Source of the DNA: Kineothrix alysoides
Lineage (GTDB): Bacteria; Bacillota; Clostridia; Lachnospirales; Lachnospiraceae
Direction: 5' to 3'
DNA length: 64,000 nt
Assembly (NCBI RefSeq): GCF_000732725.1
Contig: NZ_JPNB01000001.1
Coordinates: 372,001-436,000 of the forward strand
Shown here: positions 23,160-37,369 of the stretch, piece after piece
Numbering within the stretch: the stretch's first letter is position 1
Layout of the letters: every line of letters starts with the position of its first letter
Notes under the pieces: generated by a model
Database searches by the model: none
Seen by the model: only the letters and a program-made list of their open reading frames with translations
What the model was told of the DNA's origin: nothing
Position numbers and translations under genes: made by a program

Positions 23160-23186
23160 TTAGCACTCATTTTTAATGAGTGCTAA
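23160..23186. promoter_or_regulatory. CIRCE operator (HrcA binding site)
   Basis: Perfect consensus TTAGCACTC-N9-GAGTGCTAA. It lies about 120 bases upstream of htpG, just before a TTGACT/TAAAAT promoter. HrcA repression through CIRCE is the standard control of groE and dnaK operons in Firmicutes; here it marks htpG as part of that regulon. Confidence 0.95.
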
Positions 23187-23304: not shown

Positions 23305-25389
23305 ATGGCAGCAAAACATGGTAGTTTATCAATCAATAGCGATAATATTTTCCCGATTATCAAGAAATGGCTGTATTCCGATCATGATATTTTTATGAGG
23401 GAACTTATTTCTAACGGATGTGATGCGATTACTAAGCTGAAGAAGTTGGAAATGATGGGAGAATGTACTTTGCCAAACGATTATAAGGCGAAGATACAAG
23501 TATTGGTGAATCCCGAAGAAAAGACTTTGAAATTTATCGATAACGGTATAGGAATGACGGCCGAAGAGGTGGAAGAATACATCAACCAGATCGCTTTTTC
23601 CGGTGCGACGGACTTTTTTGAAAAATATAAGGATAAGACCAACGAGGACCAGATCATCGGACATTTCGGTTTGGGCTTTTATTCTGCGTTCATGGTAGCG
23701 GACCAGGTGCATATCGATACTCTTTCTTATAAAGAGGGAGCAGCTCCCGTTCATTGGGAGTGCGACGGCGGCACGGAATTTGACATGGAAGAAGGAACGA
23801 GAACGGAAGTAGGTACGGAGATTACTTTGTTTATCAACGAAGACTGCCTCGAGTTCTGCAACGAATATAAGGCGAGAGAGATTATTAAGAAATACTGCGC
23901 CTTCATGCCTACAGAAATTTATTTATCAAAAGAAAACACGACGGAAACCCAGATTATCAAAGCGGATGAAAAGCTGGATACGGACACTGTATTGGAAGAG
24001 GTTGCCAAGGAAAAAGAAGAGGATGAGCAGAAGCTTAAAATAGCCAAAAGGCCGGAGCTTCTCAACGAGACGAATCCTCTTTGGGCGAGACATCCTAACG
24101 AGTGTACGAAAGAGGAATATCTGGAATTCTACCGCAAGGTGTTTCAGGATTACAAGGAGCCGCTGTTTTGGATACATCTGAATATGGATTATCCCTTTAA
24201 TTTAAAGGGGATTCTCTATTTTCCCAAGATCAACACGGAATATGAATCCATCGAAGGTACCATTAAGCTATACAATAACCAAGTATTTATTGCTGATAAT
24301 ATCAAGGAGGTCATTCCGGAGTTTCTGCTTTTACTAAAGGGAGTGATCGATTCTCCCGACCTGCCGCTTAACGTCTCCAGAAGCGCGCTTCAAAACGACG
24401 GCTTTGTGAAGAAGATTTCCGACTACATTACGAAGAAGGTTGCGGATAAACTGGCCGGAATGTGCAAGACGGAGAAAGAGGAGTATGAAAAATACTGGGA
24501 TGATATCAGTCCATTCATCAAATTCGGCTGCTTAAAGGATGACAAATTCTGCGAGAAGATGACAGATTACATTCTCTTTAAAGATTTGGACGGAAAGTAC
24601 CTGACTCTGCCCGAGTGTCTGGAGGTCAACAGAATCGACACGGAGGATGCCGTAGATGAGAATGGAAATAAGGTGGAAGCTGAAGTTGTAGACGAAGATG
24701 GCAGCAAGGCGAAGACCGATATCTTAGATGAAGATGGAAATGTTGTGGATGAAAATGCCGGTGAAGAAGAGAAGAATGAAAAAGTAATCTACTATGTAAC
24801 GGATGAAAAGCAGCAGAGCCAGTACATCAACATGTTTAAGAATGCCAAAATGGACGCTGTCATTTTGACTCATAATATTGACCAGCCCTTTATTTCCCAG
24901 TTGGAAGCGAAAAATGAAGGCATTAAGTTCCAGCGTATCGATGCGGATATCACAGATACGCTCAGGGCGAAGACCTCCAAAAAAGCGGAAAAGGAAATGG
25001 AAGAGCAGGCTGAAGAAATTGCAAAAATTATGAAGAAGGTCCTGAAAAAGGATGCTTTGACCGTGAAAATAGAAAAACTGAAAAACAAAAAGATTTCTTC
25101 CATGGTCACGATATCTGAGGAAAGCAGACGTATGCAGGATATGATGAAGATGTACTCCATGCCTGGAATGGACATGGGTATGTTCGGCAAAGAGGGGGAA
25201 ACGCTGATTCTCAATGCGAGCCATCCTTTAGTGCAGTATGTTCTGGATAATAAAGAGGACGATAACGTAAAGATGATCTGCGAGCAGCTCTATGACTTGG
25301 CGATGATTCAGAACGCACCGCTCGAGCCGGAAGCGATGACTAAATTTATTGCGAGAAGTAACGACATCATGATGCTTCTTACGAAATAA
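23305..25389 (+). CDS. htpG: Chaperone HtpG (Hsp90)
   Basis: 694 residues. The N-terminal GHKL ATPase domain shows ELISNGCDAITK, DNGIGMTAEEV and GHFGLGFYSAFMV. The middle domain has the catalytic-loop region PLNVSRSALQ. A C-terminal dimerisation domain follows. It is about 70 residues longer than E. coli HtpG. The excess is largely an acidic, Asp/Glu-rich insert at about 444-492 built on a repeated DENG/DEDG unit, seen in clostridial HtpGs. Preceded by a perfect CIRCE. RBS GGAAAGTGA. Ends in an intrinsic terminator; monocistronic. Confidence 0.97.
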   Translation: MAAKHGSLSINSDNIFPIIKKWLYSDHDIFMRELISNGCDAITKLKKLEMMGECTLPNDYKAKIQVLVNPEEKTLKFIDNGIGMTAEEVEEYINQIAFSGATDFFEKYKDKTNEDQIIGHFGLGFYSAFMVADQVHIDTLSYKEGAAPVHWECDGGTEFDMEEGTRTEVGTEITLFINEDCLEFCNEYKAREIIKKYCAFMPTEIYLSKENTTETQIIKADEKLDTDTVLEEVAKEKEEDEQKLKIAKRPELLNETNPLWARHPNECTKEEYLEFYRKVFQDYKEPLFWIHLNMDYPFNLKGILYFPKINTEYESIEGTIKLYNNQVFIADNIKEVIPEFLLLLKGVIDSPDLPLNVSRSALQNDGFVKKISDYITKKVADKLAGMCKTEKEEYEKYWDDISPFIKFGCLKDDKFCEKMTDYILFKDLDGKYLTLPECLEVNRIDTEDAVDENGNKVEAEVVDEDGSKAKTDILDEDGNVVDENAGEEEKNEKVIYYVTDEKQQSQYINMFKNAKMDAVILTHNIDQPFISQLEAKNEGIKFQRIDADITDTLRAKTSKKAEKEMEEQAEEIAKIMKKVLKKDALTVKIEKLKNKKISSMVTISEESRRMQDMMKMYSMPGMDMGMFGKEGETLILNASHPLVQYVLDNKEDDNVKMICEQLYDLAMIQNAPLEPEAMTKFIARSNDIMMLLTK

Positions 25390-25536: not shown

Positions 25537-26808
25537 ATGCCTGTAAATATTATACATTCAGCGCAACAGGGGCCATTAGACAACACCTATGCCGGGGGTC
25601 TGAAAATAAGTGTGACCTCCACGCTGGGACCACTCCCCGTTCAGGGCGCTACGGTTTCGATTTCATATACTGGAATGAGCGATTCCATTATAGAAACTTT
25701 GGATACGGATGAGTCGGGACAAACCGAAGAAATAGATCTTCCGGCACCTCCGCTGGAATATAGTCTGGAGCCGGAAAGCAACCGCCCTTATTCCGAGTAT
25801 GACATTCAAGTAAATGCACCCGGATATGAACCTATTTTGATAGCGGGAACACAGATATTACCGGATGTTTTGGCATTACAGCCAGTCGAGATGATTCCCA
25901 GAGACATCCCGGGAACGGAAGAGGAGATAGTAATTCCTTACCATACCTTGTACGGAGATTATCCGCCTAAAATACCGGAAGATGAAATTAAACCGATGGC
26001 CGAAACGGGAGAAATTGTACTTAGCAGAGTGGTAATTCCTGAGTTTGTGGTTGTACACGACGGCGTTCCCTCTGATGCTTCCGCCCCCAACTATTATGTC
26101 AGATATAAGGATTACATCAAGAACGTAGCTTCCTCGGAGATCTATGCCACATGGCCGGAGAGTTCGATTTACGCGAATATTTTATGTATTATGTCGGTGA
26201 CTCTCAATAGGGTATATACTGAGTGGTATCGGAATCAGGGCTATAATTTTACGATTACGTCTTCCACTGCTTACGACCAAAAGTGGATGAAAGGAAGAAA
26301 TATCTATGAAAATATCGATTATCTTGTAGATACAGTTTTTGCCAATTTCTTATCGCGGCCAGGGGTCAGGCAGCCGATCTTTACTTCCTTTTGTGATGGT
26401 AGTCGGGTGACCTGCAATGGACTTAGCCAGTGGGGATCGAAATTTTTAGGAGATGAAGGTTATACGGCGATAGAAATAATCCGTAATTATTTTGGAAATG
26501 ATATGTATATCAATACGGCGGAAAGCGTCGCGGGCGTGCCGGCGTCGTGGCCGGGGTATAATTTGACAGTTGGTTCCAGCGGGGAGGCGTCGCTTCAGAT
26601 TCAGCAGCAATTGAACCGCATAGGACAGAATTATCCTGCGATACCGAACGTAACGGCGGATGGAATTTATGGGCCGCAGACGGCAGAAGCAGTAAGGGTA
26701 TTTCAGGGGATTTTCAACATTCCGCAGACGGGAATCGTGGATTATCCTACGTGGTATAAAATATCCAATATTTATGTGGGCGTAACTCGGATGGGAGAAC
26801 CGGGGTAA
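25537..26808 (+). CDS. SpoIID-like protein with C-terminal peptidoglycan-binding domain
   Basis: 423 residues. Residues about 20-110 look like a carboxypeptidase-regulatory-like beta-sandwich (GLKISVTSTLGPLPVQGATVSI). Residues about 190-330 resemble the SpoIID/LytB family (YVRYKDYIKNVASSEIYATWP, then IYANILCIMSVTLNRVYTEW, and GLSQWGSKFLGDEGYTAIEIIRNYFG). The C-terminus is a PG_binding_1 repeat (LQIQQQLNRIGQNYPAIP, DGIYGPQTAEAVRVFQ). SpoIID members cut denuded glycan in the spore cortex or septum. There is no signal peptide, so it may act in the spore or mother cell. Weak RBS (AGAGGTATTTCC). Confidence 0.75.
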   Translation: MPVNIIHSAQQGPLDNTYAGGLKISVTSTLGPLPVQGATVSISYTGMSDSIIETLDTDESGQTEEIDLPAPPLEYSLEPESNRPYSEYDIQVNAPGYEPILIAGTQILPDVLALQPVEMIPRDIPGTEEEIVIPYHTLYGDYPPKIPEDEIKPMAETGEIVLSRVVIPEFVVVHDGVPSDASAPNYYVRYKDYIKNVASSEIYATWPESSIYANILCIMSVTLNRVYTEWYRNQGYNFTITSSTAYDQKWMKGRNIYENIDYLVDTVFANFLSRPGVRQPIFTSFCDGSRVTCNGLSQWGSKFLGDEGYTAIEIIRNYFGNDMYINTAESVAGVPASWPGYNLTVGSSGEASLQIQQQLNRIGQNYPAIPNVTADGIYGPQTAEAVRVFQGIFNIPQTGIVDYPTWYKISNIYVGVTRMGEPG

Positions 26809-28782: not shown

Positions 28783-29151
28783 TTACTCCCCCTCTTTGGC
28801 TGTTTTTTCAATGAGATTCAAAATCTCTTTTTCCGAATAGCCCAGTTCCTTCATCATCTGAAAAAAGTTCTTAATACATTCTTCGGCCAAGTGTGCCTGC
28901 GTCTGATTGATCAATTCGATATCCTCCGTTACGGTGCGTCCGCTCGTTCTCTGTGTTACAATTAGACCGTTTCTTTCCAGTTCCGCGAAAGCTTTTTGCA
29001 TTGTATTCGGATTGACGCTCGCTTCTGCGGCCAGTTCTCTGACACTCGGAAGCCGGTCGCCGGCTTTATAACGGCCTGAAATAATCTGCGTTTGTATTAT
29101 TTCAACGAGTTGTGTGTAAATAGGTTTATCTGCATTTAATATCCACGCCAT
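28783..29151 (-). CDS. GntR-family regulator, YtrA subfamily
   Basis: 122 residues from ATG 29151 (AAGGAAGGATCAC upstream); a TTG at 29172 could add 7. A winged helix (IQTQIISGRYKAGDRLPSVRELA, then VNPNTMQKAFAELERNGLI) is followed by a short helical tail with a C-terminal GYSEKEILNLIE, the hallmark of YtrA proteins that lack a large effector domain. First gene of the operon with an ABC ATPase and permease, 2 nt apart. It probably represses its own operon through the inverted repeat at 29181-29214. Confidence 0.92.
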   Translation of the reverse strand: MAWILNADKPIYTQLVEIIQTQIISGRYKAGDRLPSVRELAAEASVNPNTMQKAFAELERNGLIVTQRTSGRTVTEDIELINQTQAHLAEECIKNFFQMMKELGYSEKEILNLIEKTAKEGE

Positions 29152-29180
29152 GTGATCCTTCCTTTCTTTCAATTTATTGG

Positions 29181-29214
29181 ACAGTAGTTTGTCGGTAGTC
29201 GTTTGTACTACTGT
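29181..29214. promoter_or_regulatory. Putative operator for the GntR/YtrA regulator
   Basis: A perfect 8-bp inverted repeat ACAGTAGT-N18-ACTACTGT sits between the gntR start and its promoter (on the minus strand TTGACA, 17 bases, TATTGT at about 29223-29251). Location downstream of the promoter fits repression by the first gene product. Confidence 0.65.
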
Positions 29215-29222
29215 ATTACTTA

Positions 29223-29251
29223 ATTAATACAATAGTATAAAAATATTATTT
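29223..29251 (-). promoter_or_regulatory. Promoter of the GntR-ABC operon
   Basis: Read on the minus strand: TTGACA, 17-base AT-rich spacer, TATTGT, followed by the ACAGTAGT/ACTACTGT operator. Confidence 0.6.
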
Positions 29252-29295
29252 TGTCAACCTATAAATCACACTTAAATTGAATTTCTTCGCGCGGT

Positions 29296-29325
29296 TGCTA
29301 AAAGGGGTTTCTTAATGGTATAATT
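29296..29325 (+). promoter_or_regulatory. Promoter of the DUF5717-DUF5716 operon
   Basis: TTGCTA, 18-base spacer, TATAAT (around 29320), about 35 bases before the TTG start. It diverges from the GntR-operon promoter within the same intergenic region. Confidence 0.6.
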
Positions 29326-29358
29326 TAATAATGTAAATCTGGTGTGGGGTGAAATAAT

Positions 29359-32300
29359 TTGAGGAAGGTAATGGGCGATTTATTAGAGGGCAGATTTGAT
29401 TATGAGAAGCCGGAATGCAATCAGGAAACTTATGATAGCGGCATCTTAGACTTTTCATCCTTAAGTCTGGAGCTTTTCCTGAACAAAGGGGAGATGGAAG
29501 AGGGTTCCTTTATCATATCGGGGCCTGCAGATAAGCTTATGGAAGGGTACATATATTCCTCGGAGCTTAGAATGGAATCCTTAAGTAAGGAGTTTATCGG
29601 AGTAAAAGAAGAAATTGCATACCGGTTTCGTTCGGAGGGGATGAAGGAAGGGGATGTTCTTACCGGCCAGTTTTCCATCATATCCAATTACGGGGAGTAC
29701 GAGCTTCCATACCGTATCGAAATTGTCTCCGGCACCGTGACTTCGAGCCTCGGTGACATCAAGAACATGTTTCATTTCGCCAATCTGGCTAAGGCGAACT
29801 GGGCGGAGGCGGTGAAACTTTTTTATTCCAAGGAATTCGAGCGTTTATTTACGGACGGTAACGACAGACAGTACTACGGAGCTTACAAGGGGCTTTCTGC
29901 GGTATACGGTAACGAGCAGAATGTAGAGGAATTTCTTCTCGAGATAAATAAGAAGCAGAAGGTGGAGTATATACTGAGCGAGACTGATATCTGCATCGAG
30001 GATCCCTATGATATTTCGGAGCACAGTCTTACGGTTACGCGAAATGGATGGGGACATACTTTTTTGAATATTGGGACAGAGGGGGATTTTCTTACCTTAG
30101 AGAAGGAAAAGATATCGGACGATGACTTTCTGGGGAATTCCTTTTGTCTAAACTATTATATAGACAGCGAAAAGCTGCATGCCGGGCGCAATTACGGCGC
30201 CATACATATCTTTAATTCCTGTGTCAGCCTGACGATACCCGTCTTAGCGGTTCGCAATATGGAGCATAAGCGGGCATTGGGAATCCGCAGGGAGAAGAGG
30301 AATCTCCTCTTGGTGCTGATGAAACATTATGACTCCTTCCGCATGAAAAAGATGAATGCACGGACATGGATGGCTGAGACGGAGAAGCTGGTGGAACGGC
30401 TTGCGGTGCTTGATGAGAAGGACATACAGATAAGGCTGTTCCGAGTACAGATTCTTATTACGCAGGAACGATTTAATGAAGCACAGTGGCAGTTAGAGCG
30501 AATCCAATCGGAGATTCGGGAAAACAGTTGTCCCCCGGAGATCTATTGCTATTACTTATATTTAACTACGCTGCACAATGGAGAGCCCTCCTATGTGGAG
30601 GAAGTATCGAGGAAGGTGGAGCGGATATACTATGACAATCCGAATAACTGGAGGATTGCATGGCTTATGCTGTATCTGTCGGAGGAATACGGCAAGAGTC
30701 CTTCCAGGCGCTGGCTGATGCTGGAGGAGCAGTACAGCAGAGGGGGAAGGAGCCCTGTTCTGTATGTCGAGGCATGGCATCTGTTAGAGCTTAATCCTAC
30801 CCTCCTTTTGAAACTTGGCTCCTTTGAGATTCAGGTGTTGAGTTACGCTGCGAAAAGGGAACTTTTGACGCAGGACTTGATTTTGCAGGTGCGGTATTTG
30901 GCGCTGAAGCTGAAGTCCTATTCGGAAAGAGTTTACTATATATTAGCTTCCTGTTACGAGAAATTTCCGGATAAGGAGACACTGCAGGTCATTTGCACGT
31001 TGCTGATAAAGGGAAATAAGGCGGAGGGCCGCTATTTCAAATGGTATCGGCTGGGCGTAGAGGCGGAGCTTCGCATTACGAAACTCTATGAATATTATAT
31101 GATGTCCCTGCCTGAAGATTATGACGGAACTCTTCCTAAGATTATTCTTATGTATTTTTCCTACCACAGTGAGCTGGATTATGAAAAGAACGCTTTTTTG
31201 TATTCCTATGTATATAAGAGAAGGGAAGAACAGCCGGAAGTATATTTAAATTACTGCGAACGCATTGAGCGGTTCGTTTTGGATCAGATACATAAGGGGC
31301 GGATGAATAAGAACCTGGCCTATTTATATAAGAATACGATATCGCCCCGAATGGTAAATGAAGAGGTGGCACAGAAGCTGGCCTATCTTATTTTCATGAA
31401 CCACTTGACTATGGAAAACAAAGATATCAGACAAGCGATTGTAAGCTATTCCGTCAGCAGACAGGAATATAAATATCCGGTAGGCGGGGACGGAGCGTGG
31501 GTGCCTCTTTACGGCAGCGATTATAAGCTGCTTCTGGAGGATAAGGAGGGAAACCGGTATTGTGCCAGTGTACCCTTCCAGGTGGAAGCGATGATGCCGC
31601 CGGATAATCTGCTGCTTATAATCAGCCCTTATGTGACGGAGCATATGGGTCTTGCACTGCATATATGTGCAGGAGACAAGGCTTTTGTGGAGATTACGCA
31701 GGCAAATGAAAGGCGGTTTAGGTATATTGCTGCTAACGCTCATATGGCGGAACGCACCAAGAGCGAAGTAAGGCTTAAGCTGGTGCATTATTATTATGAG
31801 CAGGACTATATGCGGGAATTAGACGATTATCTGGAGGAGCTGCAGCCGGAGGTCATGGAGGAGAGGGAGAGAAATGAAATCCTTCGCCTTATGGTCATTC
31901 GGGGAATGTATGATAAAGCCTTTGAATGGGTAAAGCGTTTCGGTGCAGAGGGTATAGAGACAAAGACTCTCGTACGTCTGTGCAGCCGCCTGATATCACG
32001 GGACGGTTTTTTAGAGGATACGGCGCTGACCTATTGCGTTCATTATGCGTTTAAGAAGGGAAAGTATGACGGAAACCTGATTACCTATCTTGGTTATTTC
32101 TACAACGGACTGCTAAGGCAGCTGCGGGATATATGGAAAGCTGCGACGGCCTTTGACGCGGAGACCTATGAACTGTGTGAAAGAATTCTTGTGCAGATGC
32201 TGTTTGCCGGTTCCTTTGTGGGAGAGCGGATGGAAATCTTCAAAGCCTATGTATCAGGAGGCGCGAAGGCACAGGTGGAACATGCGGTTCTTTCCCAATG

Positions 32301-32952
32301 TGCTTTTGATTATTTTGTAAAGGACAAGCTGCCGGATGAGTTCATTTTTACAGATACCGTCAGGGTCTATGATAGAGGAGAGCGGCTTCATAAGGTATGT
32401 AAGCTGGCACTGTTGAAATATTATGCCGAGAATAGGCAGGATACCACGCCGAAGATAAACTCGGTAATTAAGAAGTTTTTATACGATATGCTGGATGAAA
32501 ATATTTATTTTTATTTTTTTAAAGAGTATACGAAGGAAATCCCGATTATGAAGCAGTTTGCGGATAAGACGATGATTGAGTATAAGGTCAGGCCGGGAAG
32601 AAAAGCAGTTATCCATTTCATTGTGGAAAAAGGGGAGTTTACGGAAAAGGAATATAGAAAAGAAGAAATGCGGGATATGTACGGCGGTGTGTGCGTGAAA
32701 GCGTTCGTCCTATTCTTCGGAGAAAAGCTTCAATATTACATTACGGAAGAAGGGGACGGCAAAGAACAGCTTACAGAAAGCGCGTCCATCAGTAAGAGCG
32801 ATATTTTGCAGGAGGAAGCGGAGGACAGATTCAGCATGATAAATGACATCGTAGTAGGGAAGACACTTCAAGACTACAATACGGTGGATTGTTTATTGGA
32901 AGAGTATTACGGGAAGGAGTATATGACCTCGCAGATATTTAAGCTGCGCTGA
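29359..32952 (+). CDS. DUF5717-family giant solenoid protein
   Basis: 1197 residues. I recognise it as the DUF5717 family, uncharacterised. Two beta-sandwich-like modules (about 20-130 and 215-305) are followed by a long helical, TPR-like solenoid (about 320-700). A third beta segment with YPVGGDGAWVPLYGSDYKLL lies at about 705-795, then a second solenoid (about 800-1060), then an alpha/beta tail. No signal peptide or membrane span, so cytoplasmic. The TTG start is chosen because GGGGTGA lies 7 nt upstream and the ATG at 29371 is too close to its own RBS. First of four same-strand genes; next is an Hsp70-like protein 29 nt away. Likely a scaffold or client-binding partner (inference). Confidence 0.75.
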   Translation: MRKVMGDLLEGRFDYEKPECNQETYDSGILDFSSLSLELFLNKGEMEEGSFIISGPADKLMEGYIYSSELRMESLSKEFIGVKEEIAYRFRSEGMKEGDVLTGQFSIISNYGEYELPYRIEIVSGTVTSSLGDIKNMFHFANLAKANWAEAVKLFYSKEFERLFTDGNDRQYYGAYKGLSAVYGNEQNVEEFLLEINKKQKVEYILSETDICIEDPYDISEHSLTVTRNGWGHTFLNIGTEGDFLTLEKEKISDDDFLGNSFCLNYYIDSEKLHAGRNYGAIHIFNSCVSLTIPVLAVRNMEHKRALGIRREKRNLLLVLMKHYDSFRMKKMNARTWMAETEKLVERLAVLDEKDIQIRLFRVQILITQERFNEAQWQLERIQSEIRENSCPPEIYCYYLYLTTLHNGEPSYVEEVSRKVERIYYDNPNNWRIAWLMLYLSEEYGKSPSRRWLMLEEQYSRGGRSPVLYVEAWHLLELNPTLLLKLGSFEIQVLSYAAKRELLTQDLILQVRYLALKLKSYSERVYYILASCYEKFPDKETLQVICTLLIKGNKAEGRYFKWYRLGVEAELRITKLYEYYMMSLPEDYDGTLPKIILMYFSYHSELDYEKNAFLYSYVYKRREEQPEVYLNYCERIERFVLDQIHKGRMNKNLAYLYKNTISPRMVNEEVAQKLAYLIFMNHLTMENKDIRQAIVSYSVSRQEYKYPVGGDGAWVPLYGSDYKLLLEDKEGNRYCASVPFQVEAMMPPDNLLLIISPYVTEHMGLALHICAGDKAFVEITQANERRFRYIAANAHMAERTKSEVRLKLVHYYYEQDYMRELDDYLEELQPEVMEERERNEILRLMVIRGMYDKAFEWVKRFGAEGIETKTLVRLCSRLISRDGFLEDTALTYCVHYAFKKGKYDGNLITYLGYFYNGLLRQLRDIWKAATAFDAETYELCERILVQMLFAGSFVGERMEIFKAYVSGGAKAQVEHAVLSQCAFDYFVKDKLPDEFIFTDTVRVYDRGERLHKVCKLALLKYYAENRQDTTPKINSVIKKFLYDMLDENIYFYFFKEYTKEIPIMKQFADKTMIEYKVRPGRKAVIHFIVEKGEFTEKEYRKEEMRDMYGGVCVKAFVLFFGEKLQYYITEEGDGKEQLTESASISKSDILQEEAEDRFSMINDIVVGKTLQDYNTVDCLLEEYYGKEYMTSQIFKLR

Positions 32953-32981
32953 TATGCGGGGATATAGGGGTTTTATAAGTT

Positions 32982-34298
32982 ATGCTTTTGGAAAAAACAG
33001 AAGGAATTCTTAAAAAGAACAGCAGAAGAATCGCCATCGGCTATGACCTATGCGATTCCTATGCGCAGATTAGCTATTGTTTTCCCGACTCGGAGGAGCC
33101 CGAGACTCTTGCGGCGGTAACGGGAACGGAGCAATTCAATATTCCCTTGGTACTCTGCAAAAAAAATGGAGTAAACCAATGGTTTTATGGCAGGGAAGCT
33201 CTTAAGTTCGCTCAGGAAAAGGAGGGGGTATTGGTAAAAGACCTTCTAAGCCTGGCAAGAGAAGGGGAGTCTGTGGAAATTGATGGGGACAGCTTCGATT
33301 CGGTTGCCCTTCTCACCTTATTTATTAAGCGGAGCATGTCCGCCTTAGGGCTGGTGGCGCCGCCGGAATATCTGGAGGGAATCATGTTTACAGCAGACGA
33401 CTTGGACAAACGGATGGTGGAAGTATTTTCTAAGGTAGCGGCGAACTTACACCTGAAAACGGACAAAATTTTCTTCCAGAGCCATGTGGAAAGCTTCTAT
33501 TATTATACTATTTATCAGCCTAAGGAGTTGTGGACTTACGAGGCGTTGCTGTGCGACTATGACAACCGGCGGATGAAGGTGTACGCTCTTAACAGCAACA
33601 AGAAGACTACTCCAGTGGTAATGTACATTGATATCGAGCAGTACGAACAAATACGGCGGAAGGACCCGGAAGCATTAACTGAGATGGAGGAGGACGAGAA
33701 GCATCTATTGGACATGCAGTTTCTGGACATTGTGAAGGAAAAGTGCAAGGACAGAATCATATCCTGCGCCTACTTGATCGGGGACGGCTACAAGGAGGAT
33801 TGGGCGTCGGAATCATTGAAATATCTTTGTATGGGAAGACGCGTGTTCAAAGGAAACAACCTTTACAGCAAGGGTGCCTGCTATGGGATATGCGAGAAGC
33901 TGACATGGAGCACAGAAGGGAAAAATTATGCTTTTCTCGGTTTGGATAAACTTAAGGCAAACATAGGAATGAAGGTGTTGCGAAGGGGATTGGATTCGTA
34001 TTTTGCGGTTATGGATGCCGGAGTCAACTGGTTTGAAGCGGGGAAGGAATACGATGTGATATTGGAAGATGGCAGCGACATATCCATTATTCTCACGCCT
34101 CTTAACGGCAAGGAAGCACGAGAGATTCACATGACGCTGGAAGGGATTCCGGAGAGGCCAAAGCGAACGACAAGGCTTCGCATCACGATGGAAATGGCTT
34201 CGGAGAATCAAGTGAACGTAAGGGTGAAGGATATGGGCTTTGGAGAGCTTTTTCCTTCTTCCGGCGGAGAATGGGTAAAGACATTCGACATGGTGTAA
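32982..34298 (+). CDS. DUF5716-family Hsp70/actin-like (ASKHA) protein
   Basis: 438 residues. Hsp70 features can be read directly. A phosphate-1-like strand RRIAIGYDLCDSYAQISY lies at 15-32. A second one, LLCDYDNRRMKVYAL, starts at 189. An adenosine-site-like AYLIGDGY (263-270) leads to GRRVFKGNNLYSKGACYG (285-302), comparable with the DnaK GG-x-P...EAVAxGAA region. A C-terminal beta domain contains GIPERPKR (388-395) and NVRVKDMGFGE (412-422). These match DnaK SBD-beta GIPPAPRG and NVSAKDKGTG. The helical lid is absent. Probably an ATP-driven substrate-binding protein of unknown role. Start RBS is weak; coupled to the gene before. Confidence 0.75.
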   Translation: MLLEKTEGILKKNSRRIAIGYDLCDSYAQISYCFPDSEEPETLAAVTGTEQFNIPLVLCKKNGVNQWFYGREALKFAQEKEGVLVKDLLSLAREGESVEIDGDSFDSVALLTLFIKRSMSALGLVAPPEYLEGIMFTADDLDKRMVEVFSKVAANLHLKTDKIFFQSHVESFYYYTIYQPKELWTYEALLCDYDNRRMKVYALNSNKKTTPVVMYIDIEQYEQIRRKDPEALTEMEEDEKHLLDMQFLDIVKEKCKDRIISCAYLIGDGYKEDWASESLKYLCMGRRVFKGNNLYSKGACYGICEKLTWSTEGKNYAFLGLDKLKANIGMKVLRRGLDSYFAVMDAGVNWFEAGKEYDVILEDGSDISIILTPLNGKEAREIHMTLEGIPERPKRTTRLRITMEMASENQVNVRVKDMGFGELFPSSGGEWVKTFDMV

Positions 34299-34323
34299 CT
34301 ACAAAAGCGGGAGGAGAAGGACC

Positions 34324-35157
34324 TTGGGAAAAGTATTACTTTGTATAGGAAGATATGCGAAGTTGCCGTATTTTATGGAGAAAGCATACGTCAATGTCTA
34401 TTCCGCAGAGGAGTTATGTTATTGTCTTATGCAGAACATTCATCTGATTGACAGAGAAATTATGGACGAGAATCTGGCGGACTGGCTGGCGAAGGAGTGC
34501 GGGGTGGAAGAACTGTCGGAACGTCTTTTGCACATGCTGAAAGAGGAATGCTCCATCGGCGATTTCATAGAGTGCATTCTGGACTTCGTAGGCTATGGTG
34601 AGAGAGAAGAAACTGAGAGGATAAAAGAAAATTTAAAAAGCGGAATCAGTCTTAGCATGTATGAGAAGAAAAAGATGAGAGCGGATTATTTTGCGCAAAA
34701 CGGTAAATATATACTTGCGCTGAAAAGTTATGACATTTTGCTGGACGAGCTTCCGGAATCAGAAAGAGATTTGAAGGCCAAGGTATATCATAACAGAGGT
34801 ACCGTTTACGCATTGTTCTTTCAATTCGCGGAGGCGGCAGAAAGCTTTAAACAGGCATATGAATGCGACGGCGCTGAGGAATCCCGCCTCGGATATCTGG
34901 CAGCCAACCGCATGAGGATGAACGAGACGGAATATGTGGATTTTATTGCAGGGCAGGAAGGGGATTATGGGCTGTCTTTGAAGGTGGAGGAGTTGTTTCA
35001 AGAGGCTAGGAGTCAGTTCGAGACTACCGAAAAAAGCAGAATGCTTTTTACCTTAAAGGTCTGTAAAGAGGAGAGAAATTCCATATCCTATTATGAAGAA
35101 ATTGAGCGTATAACCGGTGAATTGAAGGAACAGTACAGAGAGAATGTTTCTGAATAG
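34324..35157 (+). CDS. TPR-containing protein of the DUF5717/DUF5716 operon
   Basis: 277 residues, no signal peptide. Residues 1-105 form an unassigned helical domain. TPR-like repeats lie at about 115-195 (ADYFAQNGKYILALKSYDILL, KVYHNRGTVYALFFQFAEAAESFKQAYECD), then a helical tail. TTG start, with GGAGGAGAAGG upstream. 25 nt after DUF5716 and 12 nt before the coiled-coil gene. TPR proteins commonly dock to Hsp70 C-termini, which fits a partner role (inference). Confidence 0.7.
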   Translation: MGKVLLCIGRYAKLPYFMEKAYVNVYSAEELCYCLMQNIHLIDREIMDENLADWLAKECGVEELSERLLHMLKEECSIGDFIECILDFVGYGEREETERIKENLKSGISLSMYEKKKMRADYFAQNGKYILALKSYDILLDELPESERDLKAKVYHNRGTVYALFFQFAEAAESFKQAYECDGAEESRLGYLAANRMRMNETEYVDFIAGQEGDYGLSLKVEELFQEARSQFETTEKSRMLFTLKVCKEERNSISYYEEIERITGELKEQYRENVSE

Positions 35158-35169
35158 CGAAGGAGAAGT

Positions 35170-36372
35170 ATGGGGCTGATTAAGAAGAACAAATTATTTC
35201 AGAAGGTTTCGGGCTGGAAGGCAAAAAGGGACGTAAGGCTGGAGGAATATGAAGACGCGAACTGGATGGAACTGGAATACGACAGAAAGTCGATTCAGGT
35301 TCATGACAGCGGACAGAGACAGGATTATATTAAGGCCTTTGCGGATCAGATAGCGGATGCGAAGTTGGAGCTTGAGAATCTGAACTTGGAATACAACACG
35401 GTTACTTCCTATTTAAAGGATATGGAGGAAATCGAAGCGCTTCCTGAGGAAGAAATGCGTGAGCTTAAGGCAAGCGCAGAGAAAATTGACAAACTGGAGA
35501 ATGAGCGGGGCGTCTACCTTGGGAAAAAGAATCGTATGAGCGACGAGCGGTTTCATCAGGTGGAACGAATAGAGAAAGAAGCGCAGGAAGCCTGCCGTAA
35601 GCTTGCTTCGGCCGAGGAGGACCAAAACCGCATCAAACAGGATATGTTCCGGCTGGATGGAGAAAAGCATGCCTATTTATATAGAAAAGATGAACTGAGA
35701 AATATGATAGCGGATTCCAGAGGAATGGCAATTATCTGCGGCGCAGCCTTTGTCGTATGCTTCGCAGTGCTTCTCGTATTGCAGTATGGCATGGATATGG
35801 ATACACAGCTGGGGTTTTTACTGACGGCAGGTATTGCAGCCCTTGTCATCACCCTTCTTTATCTGAGGCATACGGAAGCCATTAAGGAGCTTAAGAAAGT
35901 AGAGGCCGGCATTAACAGGATTATCCAGCTTCAAAACAGGGTAAAGATACGATATGTGAACAATACCAACCTTTTGGACTATCTTTATTTGAAATATCAG
36001 GTATCCAGTGCCAAGGAGATGAGTACCTTGTGGGAGAAATATAAGATAGAAAAGGAAGAACGTAAAAGCTACAGGCAGGCGGAGCTGGAGCTTGACGATT
36101 GCCAGCAGGAGTTGTTAAACATCTTAAAATGCTATCAGATTAAGGATCCCGCTATCTGGCTTCACCAGACAGCAGCGATTCTGGACAGCAAGGAAATGGT
36201 GGAAATACGGCATAGCCTCATTATACGGAGACAGTCGCTGCGCCGCCGTATAGACTATAATAAAGAGGTAATCATAGCCGGAGCCCAAAATGCGATAAAG
36301 GATATGGCTGATAGTTATCCTCAGTATGCGAGGGAAATTAAAGAGCTGACGGACAGATTTGGAGATATTTAG
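35170..36372 (+). CDS. Coiled-coil protein with central membrane hairpin, operon partner
   Basis: 400 residues. An N-terminal charged, coiled-coil half (about 45-175) is followed by two adjacent membrane segments (about 182-205, MAIICGAAFVVCFAVLLVLQ; and 212-236, LGFLLTAGIAALVITLLYL), then a second coiled coil (about 238-395). Both long arms probably face the cytoplasm, making it a candidate membrane anchor for the other three proteins. RBS AAGGAGAAGT. Last gene of the operon. No family recognised. Confidence 0.7.
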   Translation: MGLIKKNKLFQKVSGWKAKRDVRLEEYEDANWMELEYDRKSIQVHDSGQRQDYIKAFADQIADAKLELENLNLEYNTVTSYLKDMEEIEALPEEEMRELKASAEKIDKLENERGVYLGKKNRMSDERFHQVERIEKEAQEACRKLASAEEDQNRIKQDMFRLDGEKHAYLYRKDELRNMIADSRGMAIICGAAFVVCFAVLLVLQYGMDMDTQLGFLLTAGIAALVITLLYLRHTEAIKELKKVEAGINRIIQLQNRVKIRYVNNTNLLDYLYLKYQVSSAKEMSTLWEKYKIEKEERKSYRQAELELDDCQQELLNILKCYQIKDPAIWLHQTAAILDSKEMVEIRHSLIIRRQSLRRRIDYNKEVIIAGAQNAIKDMADSYPQYAREIKELTDRFGDI

Positions 36373-36432
36373 TTACTATTCAGCCTTACGGCCTTATAGC
36401 AGAGATATTTAACTTATGGAAATGTTTTGTCC

Positions 36433-36461
36433 TTGACAGTAAAAGCCGGGCATGATACTAT
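36433..36461 (+). promoter_or_regulatory. Promoter of the amino-acid binding-protein gene
   Basis: Consensus TTGACA (36433-36438), 17-base spacer, TACTAT (36456-36461). The leader of about 115 bases before the ATG has repeated GTGCAGTG/CAGTGTGA words but no recognised riboswitch. Confidence 0.7.
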
Positions 36462-36583
36462 GACAGCGTGCTGACAGTTTAGCAAGATGCAGTGTGACTA
36501 TAGTGCAGTGCATTGGAAGAAACGTAAAGCACATTAGAAACTATCTATTGTTGTAAAAATGAGACGGATGAGGAGAACATAGT

Positions 36584-37369
36584 ATGAAAAAGGCGATTGC
36601 ACTATTATGCGCGGCAATGATGGCTGCGGGCGTGCTTACGGCATGCGGCGGAAGCGATTCGGGAAAGACTTTTACTGTAGGATTCGATGCGGAATTCCCC
36701 CCTTACGGTTATATGGATGAGAACGGTGAATACATAGGATTTGATTTGGACCTCGCAAAAGAGGTATGCGAGCGCAACGGATGGACCTTCGTAGCGCAGC
36801 CGATCGATTGGGATTCCAAGGATATGGAGTTATCCTCCGGTTCCATCGATTGTATTTGGAACGGATTTACGATTCAGGGACGTGAAGACGCTTATACATG
36901 GTCGGTACCCTATGTTGATAACAGCCAGGTGTTCGTAGTGGCGGCAGATTCCGGCATTACCTCTCAGGCTGACCTTGCCGGAAAGGTAGTAGGGGTACAA
37001 AAGGATTCCTCAGCCCTTGCAGCGCTGACCGGAGATGCTTCCGACTTAGCATCTACTTTTGAGGAACTTCAGCAGTATGGTGATTATAACGTTGCATTTA
37101 TGGATCTGGAGCAGAATGCGATTGATGCTCTTGCCATCGATATCGGAGTAGCGAATTATCAGATCAGCTCCAGAGGCGACAGCTTCGTGATTCTGGGTGA
37201 GCAGCTCGCTTCCGAGCAGTATGGAATCGGATTTAAGCTGGGCAATGAGGAGCTTAGGGATAAGGTGCAGAAAACCTTGCTGGAAATGGCTGACGATGGA
37301 ACTTTTATGAAAATTGCGGAAAAATACTCTGATTTCGGCTTGACAGAGAGCATTTGCATAGGAAAGTAA
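36584..37369 (+). CDS. Amino-acid ABC transporter substrate-binding lipoprotein
   Basis: 261 residues. Signal peptide with lipobox LTAC (Cys about 21). SBP_bac_3 fold: FTVGFDAEFPPYGYMDENGEYIGFD at the start, WNGFTIQGRED, and GIGFKLGNEELRDKVQKTL near the end. Similar to polar amino acid (cystine/His/Gln/Arg type) binding proteins. Forms an importer with the permease and ATPase genes downstream, but is separated from them by its own terminator and a copy of repeat A, allowing more binding protein than transporter. Confidence 0.92.
   Translation: MKKAIALLCAAMMAAGVLTACGGSDSGKTFTVGFDAEFPPYGYMDENGEYIGFDLDLAKEVCERNGWTFVAQPIDWDSKDMELSSGSIDCIWNGFTIQGREDAYTWSVPYVDNSQVFVVAADSGITSQADLAGKVVGVQKDSSALAALTGDASDLASTFEELQQYGDYNVAFMDLEQNAIDALAIDIGVANYQISSRGDSFVILGEQLASEQYGIGFKLGNEELRDKVQKTLLEMADDGTFMKIAEKYSDFGLTESICIGK

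Follow-up and report, generated by a model that had tools for sequence, protein, structure and literature searches.

Pseudo-Hsp70s are, to our knowledge, known mainly from eukaryotes. Ssz1 of the ribosome-associated complex (RAC) has neither an ATPase cycle nor a lid and is a fixed subunit of that complex, with an Hsp40 as its partner. The operon considered here lies in a 64,000-nucleotide stretch of the Kineothrix alysoides genome (contig NZ_JPNB01000001.1, positions 372,001–436,000; this whole stretch is hereafter the window), the source genome comprising 4.68 Mb in three contigs. It is formed by four tightly packed open reading frames (ORFs) on the + strand, genes A, B, C, and D, with intergenic gaps of 29, 25, and 12 bases (A–B, B–C, and C–D, respectively). 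The nearest published idea is the HSP70–GrpE theme of the GAP1-N2 GTPase systems (Kaur et al. 2020, PMC7159879). We propose, at a probability of about 0.48, that the operon is the reduced form of an Hsp70-derived system specific to one bacterial order, in which B would be a pseudo-Hsp70 serving as a binding platform without an ATP cycle. The genes and their parts are as follows.

29359..32952, + strand: gene A (DUF5717), 1197 amino acids (aa), TTG start; predicted scaffold with two PapD-like/ASH immunoglobulin (Ig) domains and a long alpha-solenoid
29440..29736, + strand: A residues 28–126, first PapD-like/ASH beta-sandwich
29956..30264, + strand: A residues 200–302, second beta-sandwich
30268..32559, + strand: A residues 304–1067, alpha-solenoid with a beta stretch at 680–744, from the secondary structure of the model; partial matches to helical-repeat proteins
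32982..34298, + strand: gene B (DUF5716), 438 aa, lid-less pseudo-Hsp70
33021..33941, + strand: B residues 14–320, fold of the Hsp70 nucleotide-binding domain, without subdomain IIB and with degenerate nucleotide motifs
33957..34289, + strand: B residues 326–436, beta part of the substrate-binding domain (SBD-beta); the protein stops there, without a helical lid
34324..35157, + strand: gene C, 277 aa, conserved N-terminal domain (IYSxEELCY) and TPR
35170..36372, + strand: gene D, 400 aa, helical part, membrane hairpin, helical part; putative optional membrane tether
35713..35871, + strand: D residues 182–234, membrane hairpin (19-residue Kyte–Doolittle windows above 1.6)
29295..29324, + strand: promoter-like site upstream of A (TTGCTA-18-TATAAT, the second hexamer preceded by TG); weak evidence

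These frames bear out the four-gene operon that an earlier interpretation of the letters and ORFs of this DNA (the sequence-only reading) had placed at 29359..36372. Pfam assigns A to PF18984 (E-value 0) and PF18983 (6e-102) and B to PF18980 (1e-109); C has TPR matches that are weak (best 7.8e-6) and under the curated cut-off, and the Pfam scan of D gave no family above its cut-off. An alternative in-frame ATG of gene A at 29371, giving MGDLLEGRF, is closer to the family consensus and may be the true start. That reading had also called the set a candidate undescribed system, in agreement with the full-text literature covered (subscription papers and preprints lying outside it), where DUF5716 appears only in an unrelated article (PMC8115291) and DUF5717 nowhere, without a description of the set.

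A longer gene cluster, which could not be seen from the window and is apparently undescribed, occurs in other families of the order, where PF18983 is found in 60 of 131 genomes (over its cut-off in 59). The usual order there, as read in 26 genomes, is A_N, A_C (sometimes one gene), K1, X, K2 (corresponding to B), K3, K4v, and C; K1–K4v are of the Hsp70 type, and X is GrpE-like. The operon is probably the reduced form of this cluster, with its three further Hsp70s and GrpE-like protein. The whole run from K1 to K4v is seen, in order, in 18 of the 26 genomes, among them G467 with other genes inserted and G441 with K4v and C each in two frames; C is labelled after K4v in 16 of these 18, while G555 has an unlabelled 308-aa ORF there and G467 has none. 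In four genomes (G470, G443, G448, and G442) the cluster runs off the end of a locus or contig, and four others have less: G505 is without K3 and all that follows, G451 (L121) has A and K2 only, and G511 and G473 have A_C and no Hsp70-type gene in the stretch read. G451 may be a second, independent reduction to the same core. D is found in five sister genomes (G441, G525, G548, G555, and G563). The inserted genes that spread the G467 cluster (L123, L218) include several with lipoprotein-like starts.

Against the HSP70 family, proteins of one such cluster (L113) score 6e-78 (K1), 2e-63 (K3), and 8e-92 (K4v), while K2 of the same locus matches PF18980 at 2e-33 and HSP70 at 2e-14. The GrpE domain (PF01025) is carried by all three X proteins tested of 22 X frames (E-values 7e-11, 1.4e-8, and 5e-12, all over the 25.8-bit cut-off). 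Catalytic residues were compared in 23 of 23 K1, 22 of 22 K2 (one genome twice), 19 of 22 K3, and 19 of 31 K4v frames (two genomes twice). All 16 checked positions are kept in every K4v sequence; K1 keeps them except at the place of E267 and, in one of the 23, K70. In K3 both phosphate loops are intact, but K70 is replaced by Tyr, Phe, Leu, or Trp in all 19 sequences (L113 2862–4499 and 18 orthologues); to judge from these residues, K3 may bind ATP while not hydrolysing it normally. Both phosphate loops of K2 are degenerate. A recognisable helical lid is absent from all four types. In K4v (L113 790–2862 and orthologues), SBD-beta is followed, in place of the lid, by a VWA domain with a DTTGSM motif resembling a metal ion-dependent adhesion site (MIDAS).

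In the structural model, B has the Hsp70 fold, consisting of the nucleotide-binding domain and SBD-beta, with no lid. The 50 Foldseek matches listed for this model are all Hsp70/Hsp110-type chains, and actin, MreB, or another ASKHA branch was rejected on this basis. The alignments used for folding contained the window and 68 (B) or 56 (A) of 80 named loci. A profile–profile alignment of B with the K3 Hsp70s covers 411 columns with the same order of elements (probability 99.8, E-value 1e-27); in profile comparison with PDB sequences, DnaK is matched at 3e-7 by B alone and at 6e-28 by B plus K2. The strings that the sequence-only reading had quoted as Hsp70 traits are all present in B, and its view of B as a lid-less Hsp70 relative stands: SBD-beta ends the protein, and the occupancy of residues 471–583 of the organism's own DnaK (the lid, SBD-alpha) is 0 in B, K1, K2, and K3. 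The value for K4v is 0.72, but the letters aligned there are the VWA stretch found by Pfam.

The nucleotide site of B is degenerate. Aligned to own DnaK, the window's B has Asp, Cys, Asp, and Ser at the places of D8, G10, T11, and T12, so that the phosphate-1 loop (DLGTTN) is not kept; nor is the phosphate-2 loop (DLGGGT), with Asp, Asp, Asn, Arg, and Arg at the places of D194, G196, G197, G198, and T199. The catalytic lysine (K70 of DnaK) is Leu in the window's B and Lys in 10 of 56 family B proteins (61 less five fused proteins). In the column of E171, where the alignment is uncertain, His is aligned in 29 of the 56, and a nearly invariant Glu (E170) stands two residues on. The stretch 185–261 of own DnaK, where the examined subdomain IIB residues lie, is unmatched in all 56 B proteins, its occupancy in K2 being 0.87. 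Since subdomain IIB and the phosphate-2 loop are lost, the "ATP-driven binder" of the sequence-only reading does not fit B; going by its residues, B is probably not an ATPase. All four genes are under purifying selection, with ratios of nonsynonymous to synonymous substitution (dN/dS) of 0.024–0.121 for B, 0.039–0.095 for A, 0.031–0.143 for C, and 0.016–0.098 for D in 10 close pairs (of 56 candidate pairs, some with a common member; approximate where dS exceeds 1).

The direction of change was read from a tree of 73 proteins (24 of the 56 B, 22 K2, 10 of 19 K3, 8 of 23 K1, 8 of 19 K4v, and one DnaK). A 100/100 branch separates K1, K3, K4v, and DnaK from K2 plus B; the B proteins form a single group (100/100) that joins K2 of a longer-cluster genome (L106) at 99/94. 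This leaves K2 paraphyletic, which makes loss in the window's family a simpler course than gain elsewhere, and because the tree puts B among K2 proteins, the family probably lost the ATP-driven subunits. Reduction is further supported by flanks common to family and sister loci (genes named by eye): a valS-like gene downstream, near the operon in 24 of 61 family loci and also at sister loci L209 and L219, and an aminotransferase-like gene upstream on the opposite strand. The K3 profile found no K3-like gene in 150 family genomes, its best score being 200 bits versus 676–841 bits for reference K3 genes of 530 aa or more (obtained with a similar, not identical model); relocation of K1, K3, or K4v elsewhere in the family genomes was rejected on this basis. 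PF00012 finds in the window's genome DnaK (two pieces of one frame), a match that by eye is MreB-like, and one weak HSP70 match in a 350-aa frame (E-value 2.6e-5; G000:C1:1380328-1380993, L229).

In the window's family (Lachnospiraceae; 150 genomes, one per genus), PF18984 (A) is found in 147 and PF18980 (B) in 145 genomes, with two B matches each in G129 and G137 (in G137, two pieces of one stretch). G029 and G091 are without both A and B; the C profile, run on nine genomes, gave nothing in G091 and only weak TPR-type matches in G029, and this joint absence of A, B, and a convincing C was counted in favour of the proposed reading. A, B, and C adjoin on the same strand and in the same order in all 61 loci, i.e., the window and 60 family loci picked for holding B, mostly on long contigs. 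D is strong (E-value 1e-60 or better) in 65 of the 150 genomes, in 64 of them just past B on the same strand and in one on another contig; it is optional and dispensable. The 80 named loci, the best 80 of 579, are close relatives of the window (D in 76) and an unfair sample for the frequency of D. A cluster outside the order was rejected: the A_C profile gave, among 391 genomes of the class, matches in 16 genomes of the window's family and one weak TPR-like match (G188, E-value 1.5e-4), PF18980 was found in 10 of 291 genomes, all of that family, and the matches listed for the K4v profile (at most two candidates scored per genome) all stop at or before model position 503 of 692, short of the VWA stretch.

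Several observations weigh against the proposed reading. In G039, A and B-C-D (the latter with a valS-like gene) are on different contigs, both away from contig ends; this is the sole clear separation of A and B in a well-covered genome, with 5% contamination listed for it. G020 (67% complete) has B alone, neither A nor C lying within 20 kb, and G146 (68% complete) has A alone, followed by other genes. G009, G051, and G055 were considered as further separations and proved to be contig breaks, and in G098 A runs to the contig end. Asp is found at the place of D8 in 47 of the 56 B proteins and the first Gly of the adenosine motif in 55, and B may still, on these residues, bind ATP in a changed mode. 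For the direction of change there is a single tree, which has several long branches and is drawn by midpoint, and no outgroup for A; the domain arrangement of A is uncertain, the predicted template modelling score (pTM) being 0.57. Owing to the exceptions G039, G020, and G146 the probability of the proposed reading was lowered slightly, from 0.50 to 0.48, and that of the wider reading given below by a similar small step. The expectation of the sequence-only reading that the four genes are kept together holds for A-B-C in the 61 chosen loci, and fails in these three genomes and for D, which is found in under half of the genomes.

In the model of A (predicted local distance difference test, pLDDT, 86.7), two Ig domains of the PapD-like/ASH type are seen together with a long solenoid that includes a beta stretch, and the C-terminal region is beta, in line with the beta-sandwich/solenoid scaffold supposed from the sequence. 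No whole-chain structural match was found (TMq at most 0.17 among the matches listed), and the partial matches are to helical-repeat proteins; on the model, A resembles a scaffold protein. The N-terminal domain of C recurs in the C proteins of sister families, than which C is shorter by several repeats (277 vs. about 385 aa); B and C form one open frame in 5 of the 60 other family loci (L040, L042, L051, L054, and L057). By its sequence D looks like a membrane-anchored coiled coil, with the hairpin at about residues 182–234 between helical arms. This agrees with the sequence-only view of D as a coiled-coil protein with a membrane hairpin, but D is dispensable. Overall, that interpretation is partly supported.

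The mechanism we propose starts from a cluster like that of the sister families, with two Hsp70s holding nearly all tested catalytic residues (K1 and K4v), K3 without the catalytic lysine, and the degenerate K2, together with GrpE-like X, scaffold A, TPR adaptor C, and sometimes membrane protein D. In the window's family, K1, X, K3, and K4v would have disappeared, leaving the degenerate subunit, now B, alongside A, C, and often D. A, B, and C would assemble into a complex in the cytosol, and D, where present, would hold it at the membrane, A acting as scaffold, C as adaptor bound to B, and D as optional tether. SBD-beta of B, aided by the PapD-like domains of A, would bind a fixed client or partner independently of any ATP cycle, making the set a docking or assembly platform and not a folding machine; a motor, if needed, might be borrowed from the housekeeping DnaK, which is present in the genome. 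Common descent, gene order, the loss of nucleotide-handling parts in B, the B–C fusions, and purifying selection are the observed part of this account.

An unlikely, though not negligible, alternative is that the set is a co-chaperone platform for the housekeeping DnaK, B placing or stimulating DnaK on one client class in the manner of Ssz1 in RAC or of Hsp110. The HPD motif was not found in the sister A, X, C, and D proteins checked, and likeness to Ssz1 does not establish such a role. We consider it improbable that B is a working ATP-driven chaperone whose remodelled pocket still cycles, with A, C, and D as co-factors. The retained Hsp70 fold and SBD-beta, the frequent Asp and Gly mentioned above, and purifying selection would suit this, but subdomain IIB is missing in all 56 B proteins, the window's B is without the two Thr of phosphate-1, K70, and GGGT of phosphate-2 (Lys at the K70 place in 10 of 56), none of the labelled genes of the family loci is GrpE-like, and K2 of the longer clusters is already degenerate at the same loops. 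Loss of the catalytic parts might also be expected of a decaying remnant without function; the dN/dS range of 0.016–0.143 across the four genes, approximate as noted, and the presence in 145 of 150 genomes leave this explanation hardly any credit.

A conflict (anti-invader) system akin to the GTPase-centred HSP70/GrpE systems of Kaur and colleagues is very improbable. In PMC7159879, the second theme of these GAP1-N2 systems combines HSP70 and GrpE with another, truncated HSP70 and with an FNIII protein to which DnaJ or TPR is fused. However, no GTPase is seen between A_C and K4v, since in 17 clusters every ORF of 60 aa or more in that interval is labelled; no GTPase domain was found in the scanned A, X, C, and D proteins, genes further out being judged from their first residues only; no PADLOC family matches A–D at E 0.01; and a defence island would not be expected in 145 of 150 genomes. 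In PADLOC, K3 and K4v of L113 match PDC-M61B (4e-11 and 2e-7, respectively), and X of L113 weakly matches ZorA (0.0014). Still less probable is a sporulation accessory, suggested by the valS, folC, and spoIIA-like genes that follow in some genomes: SpoIIAA-, SpoIIAB-, and SigF-like genes, named by eye, do recur downstream (clusters c21, c19, and c17; four to seven loci), but SpoIVA is over its cut-off in 102 family genomes against 145 for B, and 46 of the 48 genomes without SpoIVA, some of them incomplete, have B. The A-B-C set does not follow sporulation.

Upstream of the operon, htpG (Hsp90) lies at 23305–25389, 4 kb ahead, with an exact match to the consensus of the controlling inverted repeat of chaperone expression (CIRCE) at 23160, 145 bases before its start. 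This is the sole exact match in the window, and none precedes A, looser matches not having been sought; the absence of an exact CIRCE before A, although htpG has one, was counted for the reduced platform. HtpG itself was rejected as a component of the system: its relatives (cluster c32) are near the operon in 3 of the 61 loci listed. The promoter-like site before A is weak evidence, as 12 such sites occur in 29100–36700 against 13.7 expected, i.e., at chance level. Beside htpG, at 25537–26808, stands a protein with SpoIID-like and SleB-like matches under their cut-offs, with relatives near the operon in five loci (cluster c18). A zinc-ribbon and TPR-like protein (cluster c10) is found downstream in 11 of the 61 loci, often between folC and SpoIIAA-like genes, at both family and sister loci.

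More broadly, and more tentatively than for the operon itself, a whole multi-Hsp70 machine of one bacterial order may have lost its ATP motors and exchange factor, while its ATP-independent core (pseudo-Hsp70, Ig/solenoid scaffold, and TPR adaptor) became near-universal in a main gut family; the intact form would couple three further lid-less Hsp70s, one with VWA in place of the lid. The window's family is dominant in the gut, and for near-universal genes of unassigned function in such a family one experiment could open a pathway. A bacterial pseudo-Hsp70 with catalytic relatives beside it in sister families provides a natural series (full cluster, partial clusters, A-B-C) in which the role of a dead subunit, and the reason why motors can be dropped, may be tested; lid-less Hsp70s, including one in which VWA follows SBD-beta, are also relevant to the way Hsp70s hold clients.

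Compared with described proteins, A residues 28–126 and 200–302 share the fold of PapD-like/ASH proteins (HYDIN, CEP192, and FimC), a likeness seen in the fold, and A, unlike these, runs on into a long alpha-solenoid. B resembles DnaK/Hsp70 in the fold of the nucleotide-binding domain, SBD-beta, and the order of elements, and differs in lacking the lid and subdomain IIB and, in the window's protein, the phosphate loops and the catalytic lysine, and in usually adjoining A and C. Ssz1 is tied among the best structural matches to B; B, in contrast, lacks subdomain IIB, and its sister clusters show no HPD motif in the proteins checked. The GAP1-N2 systems (PMC7159879) share with the longer cluster an HSP70, GrpE, a truncated second HSP70, and a beta-sandwich or TPR protein. 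The longer cluster differs from them in having four Hsp70-type genes, one with VWA after SBD-beta, and no GTPase between A_C and K4v, and the window's set differs in the near-universal presence of B in its family.

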